Source: Candidatus Woesearchaeota archaeon (GTDB lineage Archaea > Nanobdellota > Nanobdellia > SCGC-AAA011-G17 > GW2011-AR18). Taken from it: a DNA stretch of 37,550 nucleotides. The position numbers were made by a program, and so were the translations under genes. Positions within the stretch are counted from its first letter, which is position 1. Every line of letters begins with the position of its first letter. Positions 729 through 28,463 of this stretch are shown here, piece by piece. A model generated the notes under the pieces. It was not told the origin of the DNA and searched no databases. It saw only the letters and a list, made by a program, of their open reading frames with translations. The DNA is taken from assembly GCA_016179945.1 (NCBI GenBank), contig JACPCE010000024.1:2600-40149 (forward strand), in the 5' to 3' direction.

Positions 729-1008
729 TAGTCCCAGCTACTAACTTTACTTAAAAAGTGAAGTAGTAAATTGGAGTAGTTTGGACTACACGCATCTTCA
801 CTACGGTAGCTTGCTACTATAAAATACAGCCATGACTATCCGCGACTTGCGGCCTGAAATGGCAGTGAAATTCAAAAGTGAAGATGCTACTTGGTGGCTC
901 GTATGCTGTACCTTGGCAACAACGACAACAACGGCTTGAATGGCAACAACAACCTGAACAACAATAGTCGTTTGCTTGGAATAGCCAAACTAATTATTGC
1001 TGGGACTA
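729..1008 (+). ncRNA. Predicted DGR template RNA with closing stem 729-738/999-1008 and nested stem 792-802/877-887
   Basis: tagtcccagc/gctgggacta (10 bp) and gcatcttcact/agtgaagatgc (11 bp) inverted repeats. Local hairpins gtagt-ttgg-actac (776-789), gtagc/gctac (806-817, tight loop) and ccgc-gactt-gcgg (840-852). Ends 16 nt before the RT start. Confidence 0.6.
895..985 (+). repeat. DGR template repeat (TR)
   Basis: AAC/AAT-rich copy of VR in an intergenic position immediately upstream of the RT. Confidence 0.95.
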
Positions 1009-1024
1009 TTATCTTAAAGTTAAT

Positions 1025-8548: not shown

Positions 8549-10324
8549 ATGGAAACACAAACAATTTCAAAATTAAACTTACATCCAGACGTTAAAGCCA
8601 AAGTAGAAAGCAAAAAATGGTTTTACACAGATACAGTTAAAGATCATTTCTTTAATCCTAGAAATATTTTAATAAATGAAAGTGAAAGTCATGAATATGA
8701 AAAAAATGCTGATGGTATTGGAATGGTCGGTTCCGCCGCCTGTGGAGATTCAATGAAGATGTGGATAAAGGTAGATAAAGAAAATGATAAAATAGAAGAA
8801 ATGAGATGGCAAACTTTTGGATGCTTAAAAGAAGGGGAACTTGTGTCCAGTAATCCAGACTTTATTAAGGTTGAAGATGTAAAGATGGGAGAAAAAATTT
8901 TTGATCATACAGGAAAAGAAGCTTATGTTGTAGAAACTTCAAAAAGAAAGATTAATGGTTTCTTATATAAGATAATTCCTTTAATATCAAAGTTTAATAC
9001 TTTAAATTTAACTGAAGAACATCCAATTTTAGCAATAAAAAGAAATGAATTAGTAGGTTCACGTAAACAGTCTCATACAAAGTATCTTCGTGTGGATAAT
9101 AATATTTTAATTAAAACTAAACCTAAATTTTGTTTAGCCAAATATCTAAACCCTGGTGATTATTTAGTATATAAATCTCCAGTAAAGATAAAAGATATAG
9201 AAGAAATAAGAGAAACTGAGTTAAAATTATTGGGATTTTATTTATCAGAAGGTTACTTTTCAGCAAAAGAGAAAAGTTCCGGCCAGTATGGGATTGTTGC
9301 TTTTGCTTTTAACAAAAATGAAACAAATTATATTAAAGAGCTTAAAAATTTATTAAAAAAGAAGTTTGGAAAAATGCCTTCAGAAAGAATTAGGGATAAT
9401 GTTTCAGAAACATATCTCTGCAGCAGGAAAGCGATTCGATTCTTTAATAGATATTGTGGCCATATGGCAAAGAATAAGAAACTTCATCCAGATTTAATAT
9501 ATTTACCATTGAATAAACAAAAAACTTTATTAAATTATTATTTTAAAGGGGATGGTCATTTATATAAGGATAAACGAAAAAATAGACAAGATCAACTTAT
9601 TATGAGTACTGCTTCTGAAAAACTATCCTTACAATTACAGCAACTAATAGCTAGACAAGGTTTTTTTGCAACTATCTCTAAAAGAAAAACAGTTCCTAGT
9701 AATATAAACGGTAGATTGATTCCGAGTAAAACTTGTTATGTTGTGAGCTATATAAAATCAAAAAAGAAAAAATCATTTGCTAAGAAATCAAGAAATTATT
9801 TCTTAGTTCCAATTCAAAGCATAATAAAAGAAAAATATAATGGTTATGTCTATAATTTTGAAGTTGGTGGAAAAAATAAATCTTATTTAATAAAGGGTTT
9901 TGCTGTGCATAACTGCGCTTCAGCTCTTGCTTCAACATCAATGCTTTCAGTCATGGTAACTGAAAATGGCGGAATGAAAATTGATGATGCATTAAAATTA
10001 AAACCTCAAGATATTATTGCAAGACTTGGAAATTTACCAAGCAGAAAATTCCATTGCTCTGTTCTAGGAGACAAAGCATTGAGAAGTGCAATTAACGATT
10101 ACTTTAGAAGATCAGGGCAAACAAATAGAATAATTGTTGAAGGAGCAAGAATTATAGATCCAGAAACTAAAACAACAGACAAAGACATAGAAGAAGCAAT
10201 CCTAGAAGGTGCTCTGACTTTAGAAGACGTTCAGAAAAAATTAAAGGTTGGGATTTCAAATAAAGCAGTAATTCCAGCAGTCGAAGAGCTTATAAGATTT
10301 TACAAAGAAAAATATTTCGGATAA
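8549..10324 (+). CDS. iscU: Fe-S scaffold protein IscU/NifU containing an intein
   Basis: Exteins HFFNPRNI...GMVGSAACGDSMKMWIKV...RWQTFG // CASALASTSMLS...KFHCSVLGDKALRSAI. Confidence 0.93.
   Translation: METQTISKLNLHPDVKAKVESKKWFYTDTVKDHFFNPRNILINESESHEYEKNADGIGMVGSAACGDSMKMWIKVDKENDKIEEMRWQTFGCLKEGELVSSNPDFIKVEDVKMGEKIFDHTGKEAYVVETSKRKINGFLYKIIPLISKFNTLNLTEEHPILAIKRNELVGSRKQSHTKYLRVDNNILIKTKPKFCLAKYLNPGDYLVYKSPVKIKDIEEIRETELKLLGFYLSEGYFSAKEKSSGQYGIVAFAFNKNETNYIKELKNLLKKKFGKMPSERIRDNVSETYLCSRKAIRFFNRYCGHMAKNKKLHPDLIYLPLNKQKTLLNYYFKGDGHLYKDKRKNRQDQLIMSTASEKLSLQLQQLIARQGFFATISKRKTVPSNINGRLIPSKTCYVVSYIKSKKKKSFAKKSRNYFLVPIQSIIKEKYNGYVYNFEVGGKNKSYLIKGFAVHNCASALASTSMLSVMVTENGGMKIDDALKLKPQDIIARLGNLPSRKFHCSVLGDKALRSAINDYFRRSGQTNRIIVEGARIIDPETKTTDKDIEEAILEGALTLEDVQKKLKVGISNKAVIPAVEELIRFYKEKYFG
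8822..9913 (+). mobile_element. Intein (364 aa) with LAGLIDADG endonuclease domain in IscU
   Basis: Starts CLKEGELVSS, ends YLIKGFAVHN before Cys+1. Block B-like LNLTEEHPIL; LAGLIDADG-like LLGFYLSEGYF and LLNYYFKGDGHLY. Confidence 0.92.
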
Positions 10325-21085: not shown

Positions 21086-24000
21086 AATATTTTCTTTATT
21101 CTCAAAAAACTCTTTTATTCTTTTTATAGGTTCTTTTGTAATTCTTAAATTGCTGTCTTTTGGAAAACACTTAAAATAACTATCCCAGATATATCTCTGG
21201 TCTAAAAAGATAATAACCCCCCTGTCATTCTCAGATCTAATACACCTTCCAGCATTTTGCAGACATTTTATTATTGCAGGCATTATATATCCATAATCCC
21301 AGCCCTTGCCAAATTTATTATCATAATATCTAATTAATTCCTGTGTCTCTAGATCTGGTCTGTCCAAAGGAACGCCAACAACAATAACGCATTTCAAAAT
21401 ATTGTCTTCTATATCTATTCCCTCTCCAAAATTTCCGCTAGAAGCTCCAAGCAAAACTGCCCCGCTGTTTTTATAAGACTTAAATTTATCAATGAGTTCA
21501 CTTTTCTCATCTTTACTCATATTTGGAACTTCTAAAAAAGTTGTTTTAATGCATAAGTTTTGAATGTAAAAATTTATTCTGTCTCTTAATTCATAGCTTG
21601 GAAAAAATATTGCAGAATTTCCAGGAATTTCATTAACTATTGAAGAGCAATAAACTGCTATTTTTTTATACATATCTTGTGATCTGGCAGTAAACTTTGT
21701 TGTTGTATCTGGAACAATAATGCTTAGCTTATTAAAATGTGGAAAAGGATTCTTAAAATCAGCAGTTACTGCTTCAAAACCAAACAAATCTTTGTACATA
21801 TCTAAAGGAGTTAAAGTTCCAGACATGCAAATAATACTATGGCTCATTTCAGCTAAAATTTTTGTTATTAATGCAGGATCTAAGCAGTTATAATTTAGTG
21901 TCAAAAGTTCTTTGCCCCTGTCTGTCCTATTTAATTTTAAAATTCTGCTAAATCCTTCATCAGGTCCTTGCCAATTTATTAAAAAGTTTGCAATATGGGT
22001 GCATGCACTTCTTTTCTTTATTTCCTTTATTTTTTCTCCAATAAAAAATAAGTCATTGATTAATTGATCTGTATCAATAAATTTGCTGATTTCAACTAAT
22101 AAATCTGTTTTAGTTATTAAGCATTCTCTAGTGTCTTTGTTTAATTTCAAGTTTGATAGTTTTTCAAAAGCATCTTTAATATATTTTATTGATGATCCTA
22201 TGTCTTTAAATCCAGTAGATTCAGCCTCTTTTATTGCAATGTCAATACTTATTGTTGATAATTGTGTACTAAGAAGTTCCCTGCATCTGCTTGGTAAGTT
22301 ATGTGCTTCATCAATAATTATTATGCATTCAGATAAATCCTTGTTTATTCTCTCCATTAAATGTTCCCTTATGCTTGGGCTTAATATATGATGATAATCT
22401 GCTATTATAACAGAGGCTTTTTTTGCAACTAAACATGCAACCTCGAAAGGACAAAGTATATTTGATTTAGTGTATTCTTTAAATTCTTCTACATGCAGTA
22501 TTTTCTTGCTCAACTCGCTTAATGCTGCTTGTGTTTGTACAGATAATTTATCTTTATTTTTCACAAGTTCTTTTTTTCAACTGCATCCTTACAATAATCA
22601 TAAAATTCTCCAGTGCTTAAATCAGTAACTCCGTTTTGTGCACACATCCATTTTTTCCCTATTAAATCAACAACGCCAAAATCAAGATTATATTTCTGTT
22701 TTATCAATCTTAAAGTTTCTATAGCAATTCTGTGTTGTGTGTGCTTGGGTGTTATAAAAAATACGGTTAATTTGTTCTGTAAAGCATAACTTAAAGCAAC
22801 ACTTAGTGATGCAGCAGTATTATGTAATATTATACCATTACCTATGAAATTTTTAGTACCTGGAACTGTAGCATCATATACAAAAGCTCTTCTTGAATAA
22901 TTTATACTTTTAATTTCATCCCAAAATATATCTGAATTAGCTAACAATTGAAGAAGATTTTTATTGTCTAATTTTTTTGTTTTATTAAAATATTCAACTA
23001 TATTATTTAAGCCTTCCCTACTAGGATTTCTAAATTTATAAATATAAGACTCATAGATTCTATAATTGTGAGATCTATTGTATTTTAATTTTATGTCTTT
23101 ACCTGTATTTTTTATTAATGAGCTTATTTCCGGAATTAAGTCTATATTGGGATTTGATTTTTTGTCAATTATCTCTTTTAAAGCCTTTTGTTTTCTACTT
23201 AATCTGAAACCTATATTGTCATAAAATTTTTTATTATTTATTAAATCACATGTATATAATTTTTGGTATATTATATATCTATTTTTATATTTAACCTTCT
23301 TTTCTTTTATTATAGGATAGATATCAAAAACAAGTAAAGCATTGAGTAAACTTTCTTTTAAACTCTTACTTTTAGTAGTTAATTCAATAGATGAACCAGA
23401 AGCGTGCCCATCAGTGTCATATATACCACTAACAACATATTTTAATAATAATTTGTTTTTAAAGAAAATTCGTGGGATATCAACTATATGCGCTTTTTTT
23501 CCAGCAGGAATACCCAATAGGATAAGTAAATAGGATAAAGCTTTATAAGATATGATATATGTGCAATCATCACCATTTTTTTTCATAAAACTTCTCGGAG
23601 TTACAAACGTTTTACAAAATGATAATATTTCTTTATCTATATTACTTATTTCTATATCATTTCTATTATTATTAGTAAATTAAAATCCAATTTTAGTTTA
23701 CTAAATCTGTTCTTAGTTCCTATTTCAATAATCTCATTATTTTCATCTATATTAATTATATTTGACAATAATTTATAATTTTTATAACTAATAATTTTAT
23801 TATATTTAATTAATTCACTTAAATAATTATCATTAATTTTACTTTCTTTTGATAAAGATCTTATTGATTTATTATTTTTTATCAAATAATTTTTAATTAT
23901 ACATGAAATTCCAATTTTTATATTAAAAGCAAAATTATTTTTTATATTATTAGGTAACTTTTCGAGATCTTTTAAATAGATTTTAATCTTTCCTTCTATT

Positions 24001-24422
24001 AAATTTAATTTCCTAGAACAGGCTATAAAATCCCCAATTTTTAATTCTTTTAATTCTTTCCATAATAAATTACTAGAACTTATAGTTAAGAATTTATGAT
24101 CCCTTGTTACTTCAATTTCTCTACCTGTTCGAGAATTCAATTTATATAAACTACTTTTCTTTTTGCTTATTATAATACCACTTTCTAACTTTATCTTTAA
24201 TTTATTATCCAAAGTATTTACATTAATTTTATTAGAGTAAATTTCTTCTATTCTAACCAATCCTTCTTCAGTTAAAATCCTAGTATTGCCAGAAACACAT
24301 TTACCCAAACCAGTTGGAGCATGTGCAATTAAATTTGTTTTATTCTCTATTGTTTCTTGAATTTTTTCAATTAGTTCTTTCTGACCTTCTCTTATATTTT
24401 CATGAGGAAAAAATATATCCAT
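21077..24422 (-). CDS. XPD/DinG-type Fe-S superfamily 2 helicase, interrupted by an intein and two frameshifts (ORFs 23652..24422, 22561..23586, 21077..22564)
   Basis: NLIAHAPTGLGK // TAASLSVALSYALQ; Cys ligands in KKWMCAQN, DYCKDA, LCPFEVAC; IIIIDEAHNLPSR; ASSGNFGEGIDI; QNAGRCIRSENDRG. Confidence 0.88.
22819..24299 (-). mobile_element. Intein in the helicase Walker A motif, broken in its endonuclease region
   Basis: Starts CVSGNTRILTEEGLV..., ends KNFIGNGIILHN before T+1. DTDGHASG is LAGLIDADG-like. Length 1481 nt is not a multiple of 3. Confidence 0.88.
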
Positions 24423-28010: not shown

Positions 28011-28463
28011 ATGAAAAACGGAATAGAACTAGTGAGAACAAGCAGTACTGTGGGTGAAATTAATTTGCACTTGCAATTGACTCCAGCATACAGAAGGGAT
28101 GTTTTCTTTGATGGCCAAGTCAAAGAATTAACAAAAATATATTTCCTTGAGAAAGCAAAGAAATTAGGCATAATAATTTCTGCAATGGATTTTGGTCCTG
28201 ACCATTTTCATGCTTTCATTAGCAACTGGAAGCATTATTCGGTTGAAAAATTAGCCCATGACCTAAAAGGATTCACAAGTTATGTGATGCGTAAGCATCA
28301 TTGGGACTTGATAAAAAATAAACTTTGGGGAGATAAATTCTGGAGTGAAGGTTACTTCTACAGAACTGTTGGAGTAGTAACTGCTGATGCAGTAAAATAT
28401 TACGTAGAAATATCCTTCACTCTACAAGTATCAATCTTCCACAAAATTTTTATACTATATTAA
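28011..28463 (+). mobile_element. tnpA: IS200/IS605-family Y1 transposase TnpA, C-terminus apparently decayed
   Basis: HUH motif DHFHAFIS; GDKFWSEGYFYRTVGVVTADAVKYYVE, then non-typical ISFTLQVSIFHKIFILY. Confidence 0.8.

Follow-up and report, generated by a model that had tools for sequence, protein, structure and literature searches.

Long-range helices predicted to close the template RNA of RT-16-type diversity-generating retroelements in DPANN archaea

The window analysed here, a whole stretch of 37,550 nucleotides from a Woesearchaeales-type DPANN archaeon, carries an element that is, judged by its sequence, a diversity-generating retroelement (DGR). The assignment of the host to a DPANN group comes from its relatives, and the closest hit that bears a name is a Candidatus Woesearchaeota archaeon. 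The layout is that of a complete DGR, with all features on the forward strand. A target ORF (2-682) contains the variable repeat (VR, 465-552), a stem-loop (GCGCC-AGA-GGCGC, 550-564; DNA fold -7 kcal/mol, z -2.5) lies directly 3' of the VR, and the template repeat (TR, 895-985) stands next to a reverse transcriptase (RT) gene that begins at 1025. Alignment of the TR to the VR revealed that all 14 substitutions (14/14) fall at TR adenines and that one 3-nt unit (CAA/AAC) of the TR is missing from the VR, an indel of the kind for which AAC-repeat slippage has been proposed (PMC12875486). We further found a second, remote VR of the same TR on another contig of this genome (L077 465-543, G000:C9), which sits in a near-identical paralogous target protein and is followed by the same stem-loop. 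Avd is an accessory protein present in many DGRs, not all, and no ORF for it was found between VR, TR and RT. A search of the genome with PF05635 gave no match, yet its controls matched nowhere either.

The RT gene (1025-2769) is covered by two frames, 1025-1585 and 1525-2769, with RVT_1 matched on both halves, and its translation shows the LGNLTSQ and YVDD motifs. It is split at a run of nine G (1562-1570), which is the only G/C run of at least 7 in the window, and this copy is out of frame. At its C terminus the RT is fused to an HTH_40 domain (2140-2403 of the window, E 2.9e-21); the RT frames of many relatives are shorter than this HTH_40-fused RT.

The initial annotation had proposed that the template RNA is closed by inverted repeats around the TR, and both pairs of arms proved to be exact. 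The outer arm TAGTCCCAGC (729-738, strand X) recurs as its perfect reverse complement at 999-1008 (strand Z), between the TR and the RT start codon, and the inner arm GCATCTTCACT (792-802) is complementary to AGTGAAGATGC (877-887). Within 683-1024, no other perfect inverted repeat exceeds these two in length. Among 300 dinucleotide shuffles, an arm of at least 11 appeared in 2.3%, an arm of at least 10 in 9.3% and two arms of at least 10 in 0.3%. The RNA spanning 729-1008 is predicted to fold at -86.1 kcal/mol (z = -5.0), which none of the shuffles equalled, and the segment 720-1024 folds with z = -4.5. The two small hairpins (806-817 and 840-852) that had been placed within the inner stem are both present in the minimum-energy fold. 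Strand Z ends (1008) 16 nt before the RT ATG (1025).

The 5' part of this RNA belongs to a known family, which had gone unnoticed in the initial annotation. Positions 732-895 match the Rfam RT-16 RNA (RF03019) over its full length (model positions 1-158 of 158) at 71.7 bits against a gathering cut-off of 50, and hold the conserved RT-16 segments CUACACGC and AUAAAAU. The inner 11-bp stem is the second stem (P2) of RT-16, and P3 (829-833/859-863) with its inner hairpin (840-843/849-852) occupies 829-863 and likewise appears in the minimum-energy fold. The Rfam model stops at the first base of the TR and has no stem closing around it; its first hairpin is a local one, in which X pairs with a strand that we call Y. 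The second RT-16 copy of the same genome (L002, G000:C17) scored 64.1 bits. This second RT-16 DGR has an intact RT of 354 aa and an internal hairpin in its TR, and no VR was found for it in the incomplete assembly. Matches to RT-11 (RF03106) and RUF1 lay far below their cut-offs and were disregarded.

RT-16 is carried by 46 of 147 relative genomes, by 112 of the 380 genomes of a phylum sample and by none of 14 control genomes; among the matches listed, those outside the order are all in the same class. An RT-based search of genome contigs yielded two loci only, and the search with the Rfam family found far more. We collected 72 loci; 67 loci entered the pairing tests, and 28 further loci were held out. 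At more than 50 of the 72, a TR begins close to the end of RT-16, and its differences from a nearby VR are biased to adenines. Because RT-16 adjoins adenine-biased TRs in so many loci, comparison indicates that it is the 5' half of DGR template RNA, and the DGR nature of the family has been worked out here from such TR/VR pairs. An orphan RNA family would thereby gain a role. RT-16 was reportedly first described by Weinberg in 2017. A literature search found no paper mentioning RT-16 RNA, and another on DGRs with Rfam found none bearing on RT-16.

To compare the long-range pairings among loci, four strands (X, Y, W and Z) were defined by anchors, namely the RT-16 start, CUACACG and the GGAAUA at the TR end. 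In the window, Y (777-788) precedes the conserved CACGC and is complementary to W (982-992), which contains the 3' end of the TR (GGAATAGC); the Y:W helix, likewise missed by the initial annotation, has 11 pairs and one bulged A (A785). Each locus's own strands were then tested against strands taken from the loci of other genomes. Over the 67 loci, own strands paired better than cross-locus ones for X:Z (p 1.2e-10), Y:W (p 7.3e-13) and X:Y (p 1.3e-11), whereas W:Z, the control pairing, did far worse, with a median rank of 0.42. For these loci W had been picked by eye among GAATA-type motifs; for the 28 held-out loci, which come from other genomes of the class, it was taken from the TR/VR alignment alone. 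The held-out loci again favoured X:Z (p 1.7e-4), Y:W (p 3.4e-5) and X:Y (p 6.1e-6), with the W:Z control at 0.06. A W:Z hairpin, considered as a fourth pairing, received little support in the cross-locus and held-out tests.

The Y:W helix was further examined by column. Anchored pairing joined 565 of 670 cells, compared with 468 in the null (maximum 490). For a tree-aware null, the observed substitutions were placed on the RT tree independently of pairing in 500 simulations. The paired fraction of Y:W was 0.877 (87.7% of cells) against a null maximum of 0.714, its covariation score was 8900 against a maximum of 5992, and P2, included as a positive control, behaved in the same way. Compensated examples of Y:W include GGGCUA/UAGCCC, GGACUA/UAGUCC, AAACCA/UGGUUU, AGACCA/UGGUCU and AGGGUUA/UAGCCCU. 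Consistent with these tests, RNAalifold on the 67 loci recovered P2, P3 and Y:W unprompted, with P2 comprising exactly the pairs 792-802/877-887 and up to six pair types per position. X:Z was not recovered by RNAalifold on MAFFT alignments, in which about 74% of cells are paired along its best anchored diagonal, because Z lies at a variable distance and aligns poorly. Support for X:Z comes from the helix search with its cross-locus and held-out controls, in which Z is handled without column-by-column alignment. A good X:Z or Y:W is absent from some loci (for example, L029 and L062). Taken together, the comparison of loci identifies X:Z and Y:W as two covarying long-range helices that appear to be new to the RT-16 family, and both the closure of the RNA and the identity of the strands are well supported by it. 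The earlier proposal of a structure enclosing the TR is thus upheld for the outer stem by the own versus cross-locus and held-out tests, and the covariation that it called for at both stems is seen in homologues, through these tests (67 loci and 28 held-out) and, for P2, through RNAalifold.

Strand X can pair with either Y or Z, and which pairing is predicted depends on the length of the RNA. In full-length predictions, X:Z and Y:W each appear at 56 of 67 loci and X:Y at 7 of 67; when the 5' fragment is folded alone, X:Y is predicted at 55 of 67. The RNA of the window is predicted to behave in the same way, with X:Y in the 5' fragment and the closed form in the full RNA. The local first hairpin X:Y of the Rfam model thus covaries and is predicted in the 5' fragment, and is replaced by X:Z and Y:W in most full-length predictions. 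These predictions would fit a strand exchange that can finish only after the TR and the spacer have been transcribed. Alternative folds had indeed been suggested for this RNA, in the form of a GTGAAG at 758-763 competing with that at 878 for the CTTCAC at 796. Comparative support exists for X:Y against X:Z plus Y:W as candidate alternatives; the GTGAAG version is not supported, as it has no counterpart in the relatives L004, L022 and L054. It is unlikely to matter, because 758-763 sits in the variable X-Y loop, and several relatives have no more than a few nucleotides there. In the window this interval is predicted to form a local hairpin (739-767) that differs among relatives and could coexist with the closed form.

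A TATA-like box (TTTATATT, 701-708) precedes the RT-16 start by about 30 nt. When 105 loci were scored, TATA-like octamers (at least 7 of 8 positions) peaked 28-32 nt upstream of that start, with 24% of the loci having one at -30 and 0-6% at sampled positions outside the peak. This peak supports a discrete RNA that would begin at X, with a predicted start near 729. Scans for sigma-70 promoters and intrinsic terminators gave nothing beyond chance, as is expected since the host is an archaeon.

The RNA resembles known systems in part. In retrons, the a1/a2 inverted repeats of the ncRNA close the msr-msd, and here too the ends of an RNA are paired around a template beside an RT gene. Unlike in retrons, the product here is, by the TR/VR data, a mutagenised copy placed in the VR; no msr/msd organisation was found at the locus, and A/N-diversified VRs are present. 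With the DGR of the Bordetella phage BPP-1 (avd - TR - spacer - brt) the element shares adenine-specific transfer from TR to VR, the stem-loop after the VR and a structured RNA flanking the TR that is expected to load the RT. In BPP-1, however, structure and priming both belong to the 3' spacer, and avd coding sequence forms the 5' flank (PMC12875486). Here the structured part is the 5' leader, no ORF for an avd-like gene was found between VR, TR and RT, and the spacer is only about 40 nt (TR end 985, RT start 1025) and consists mainly of W and Z rather than of a long structured segment. The initial annotation had likewise placed most of the structure 5' of the TR, unlike the BPP-1 spacer, and the RT-16 domain at 732-895 bears this out. 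Archaeal DGRs described from Nanoarchaeota and an archaeal virus are similar in their DPANN host, the presence of several DGRs per genome and their orphan target genes, and the abstract and section list of that report mention no template RNA structure (PMC4372165).

We consider it probable that the template RNA of this DGR is circularised by base pairing and that Y:W positions the initiation of cDNA synthesis. The template RNA would consist of the RT-16 5' domain followed by the TR and the short spacer. By sequence comparison, X:Z joins its 5' start to the spacer beside the RT start codon, where it would hold the two ends together, and Y:W links the stretch immediately preceding P2 with the 3' end of the TR, which is thereby enclosed as a loop with P2 on one side and Y:W on the other. 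Transcription would start at X, and the local hairpin X:Y would be the first to form. Synthesis of the TR and the spacer would then let W capture Y and Z capture X, so that the closed form, the one recognised by the RT, would be attained by complete templates only. In Y:W, the 3' side of Y (A788) is placed as that of a primer would be. Y may therefore be a primer-like strand on the 3' boundary of the TR, in which A788-U982 is the terminal pair and A981, inside the GGAA of the TR, is the next template base, from which copying would go on through the TR. Synthesis of TR cDNA might thus begin at Y:W, perhaps with a nucleotide of the conserved CUACACGC segment that follows Y, which is proposed as the primer because the spacer has only about 40 nt and is mostly W and Z. 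The 5'-side segment Y/CACGC would then do what the 3' spacer does in BPP-1, and P2, which bounds the TR on its 5' side, may stop the RT. Priming at Y, the order of refolding and termination are what we infer from this arrangement. A paired strand exactly at the TR boundary makes the start of cDNA in archaeal DGRs with almost no 3' spacer accessible to testing, and a compact (~280 nt), self-contained template might be used in DGR engineering.

It is less likely, although a serious contender, that closure serves as a scaffold only, with Y:W merely holding the 3' end of the TR and priming proceeding as in BPP-1 from a spacer adenine or from a nicked template. BPP-1 does prime from an internal spacer adenine at the TR 3' junction (PMC12875486), and W and Z also lie in the spacer here. 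However, little of this short spacer is left free by the two strands, and at the TR boundary the partner strand of the covarying duplex comes from the 5' side of the TR. We regard it as improbable that RT-16 and its alternative pairings act mainly as a cis-regulatory switch, in which X:Z near the start codon tunes RT translation independently of template use. The 16-nt distance between Z and the ATG and the mutual exclusion of X:Y and X:Z would suit such a switch, but in one locus after another the TR has RT-16 directly at its 5' end and W across its 3' end, and a pure leader switch needs no tie to both TR boundaries. That the stems are chance inverted repeats, or a promoter or terminator dyad in an A+T-rich intergenic stretch, has almost nothing to recommend it beyond the 10-bp perfect arm seen in 9% of shuffles, and is contradicted by the fold z of -5.0, by the cross-locus, held-out and tree-aware tests and by the scan, which found no terminator-like site.

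Some templates carry a further structure that does not reach the VR. At 22 of the 72 first loci, the TR contains a small hairpin of the form CUCG-AAA-stem-loop-CGAG (CUCGAAAU...ACGAG) just upstream of its last ~17 nt, and covariation is seen in the inner stem among the sequences listed (UCUAA/UUAGA, UUUAC/GUAAA, UUUAU/AUAAA and UUUUC/GAAAA). At all 17 hairpin loci with a clean TR/VR alignment (L008, L010, L012, L013, L015, L017, L026, L027, L029, L037, L038, L050, L053, L054, L061, L062 and L072), the VR lacks the hairpin, leaving a gap of 18-25 nt with adenine substitutions on both sides. The held-out loci L099-L101 have longer TR hairpins of 30-39 nt, also absent from the VR. These alignments suggest that the hairpin is either skipped or removed as the template sequence passes into the VR.

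The run of nine G that splits the RT gene also has counterparts elsewhere. Runs of at least 7 G occur in the RT region at 9 of 71 loci and at 7 of 40 loci, many of them at one and the same site just before GMPLGNLTSQ, and runs of 7-12 G are found in L015, L020, L031, L035, L048, L050, L057, L072, L079, L080, L084, L097, L108, L111 and L114; roughly one half of the runs leave the gene in frame and the other half do not. The RT frames of L004 and L059 are open. In the DNA flanking these loci, 2 such runs were counted in 173 kb and 0 in 54 kb. The tracts have the appearance of an on/off switch of the RT by slippage (phase variation), although homopolymer assembly error may account for them instead; the copy in the window may accordingly be switched off, or its tract mis-assembled. 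A literature search found no primary paper joining DGRs and phase variation. We would put forward only tentatively, as something short of likely, the wider picture in which DPANN DGRs use a permuted template RNA with a 5' primer-like strand, the change from X:Y to X:Z plus Y:W licenses complete templates, poly-G slippage switches the RT, and some template hairpins are skipped en route to the VR.

In one relative, a decayed RT gene beside a MoxR-like ATPase (L034, 2826-4094), at a site without RT-16, has nine G at the same RT position. Elsewhere in the window, judged by the ORF list, the translations of 8549-10324 and 22561-24422 resemble intein-interrupted forms of an IscU/NifU-type protein and of an XPD-like helicase, respectively, and an ORF at 28011-28463 resembles an IS200/IS605-type transposase.
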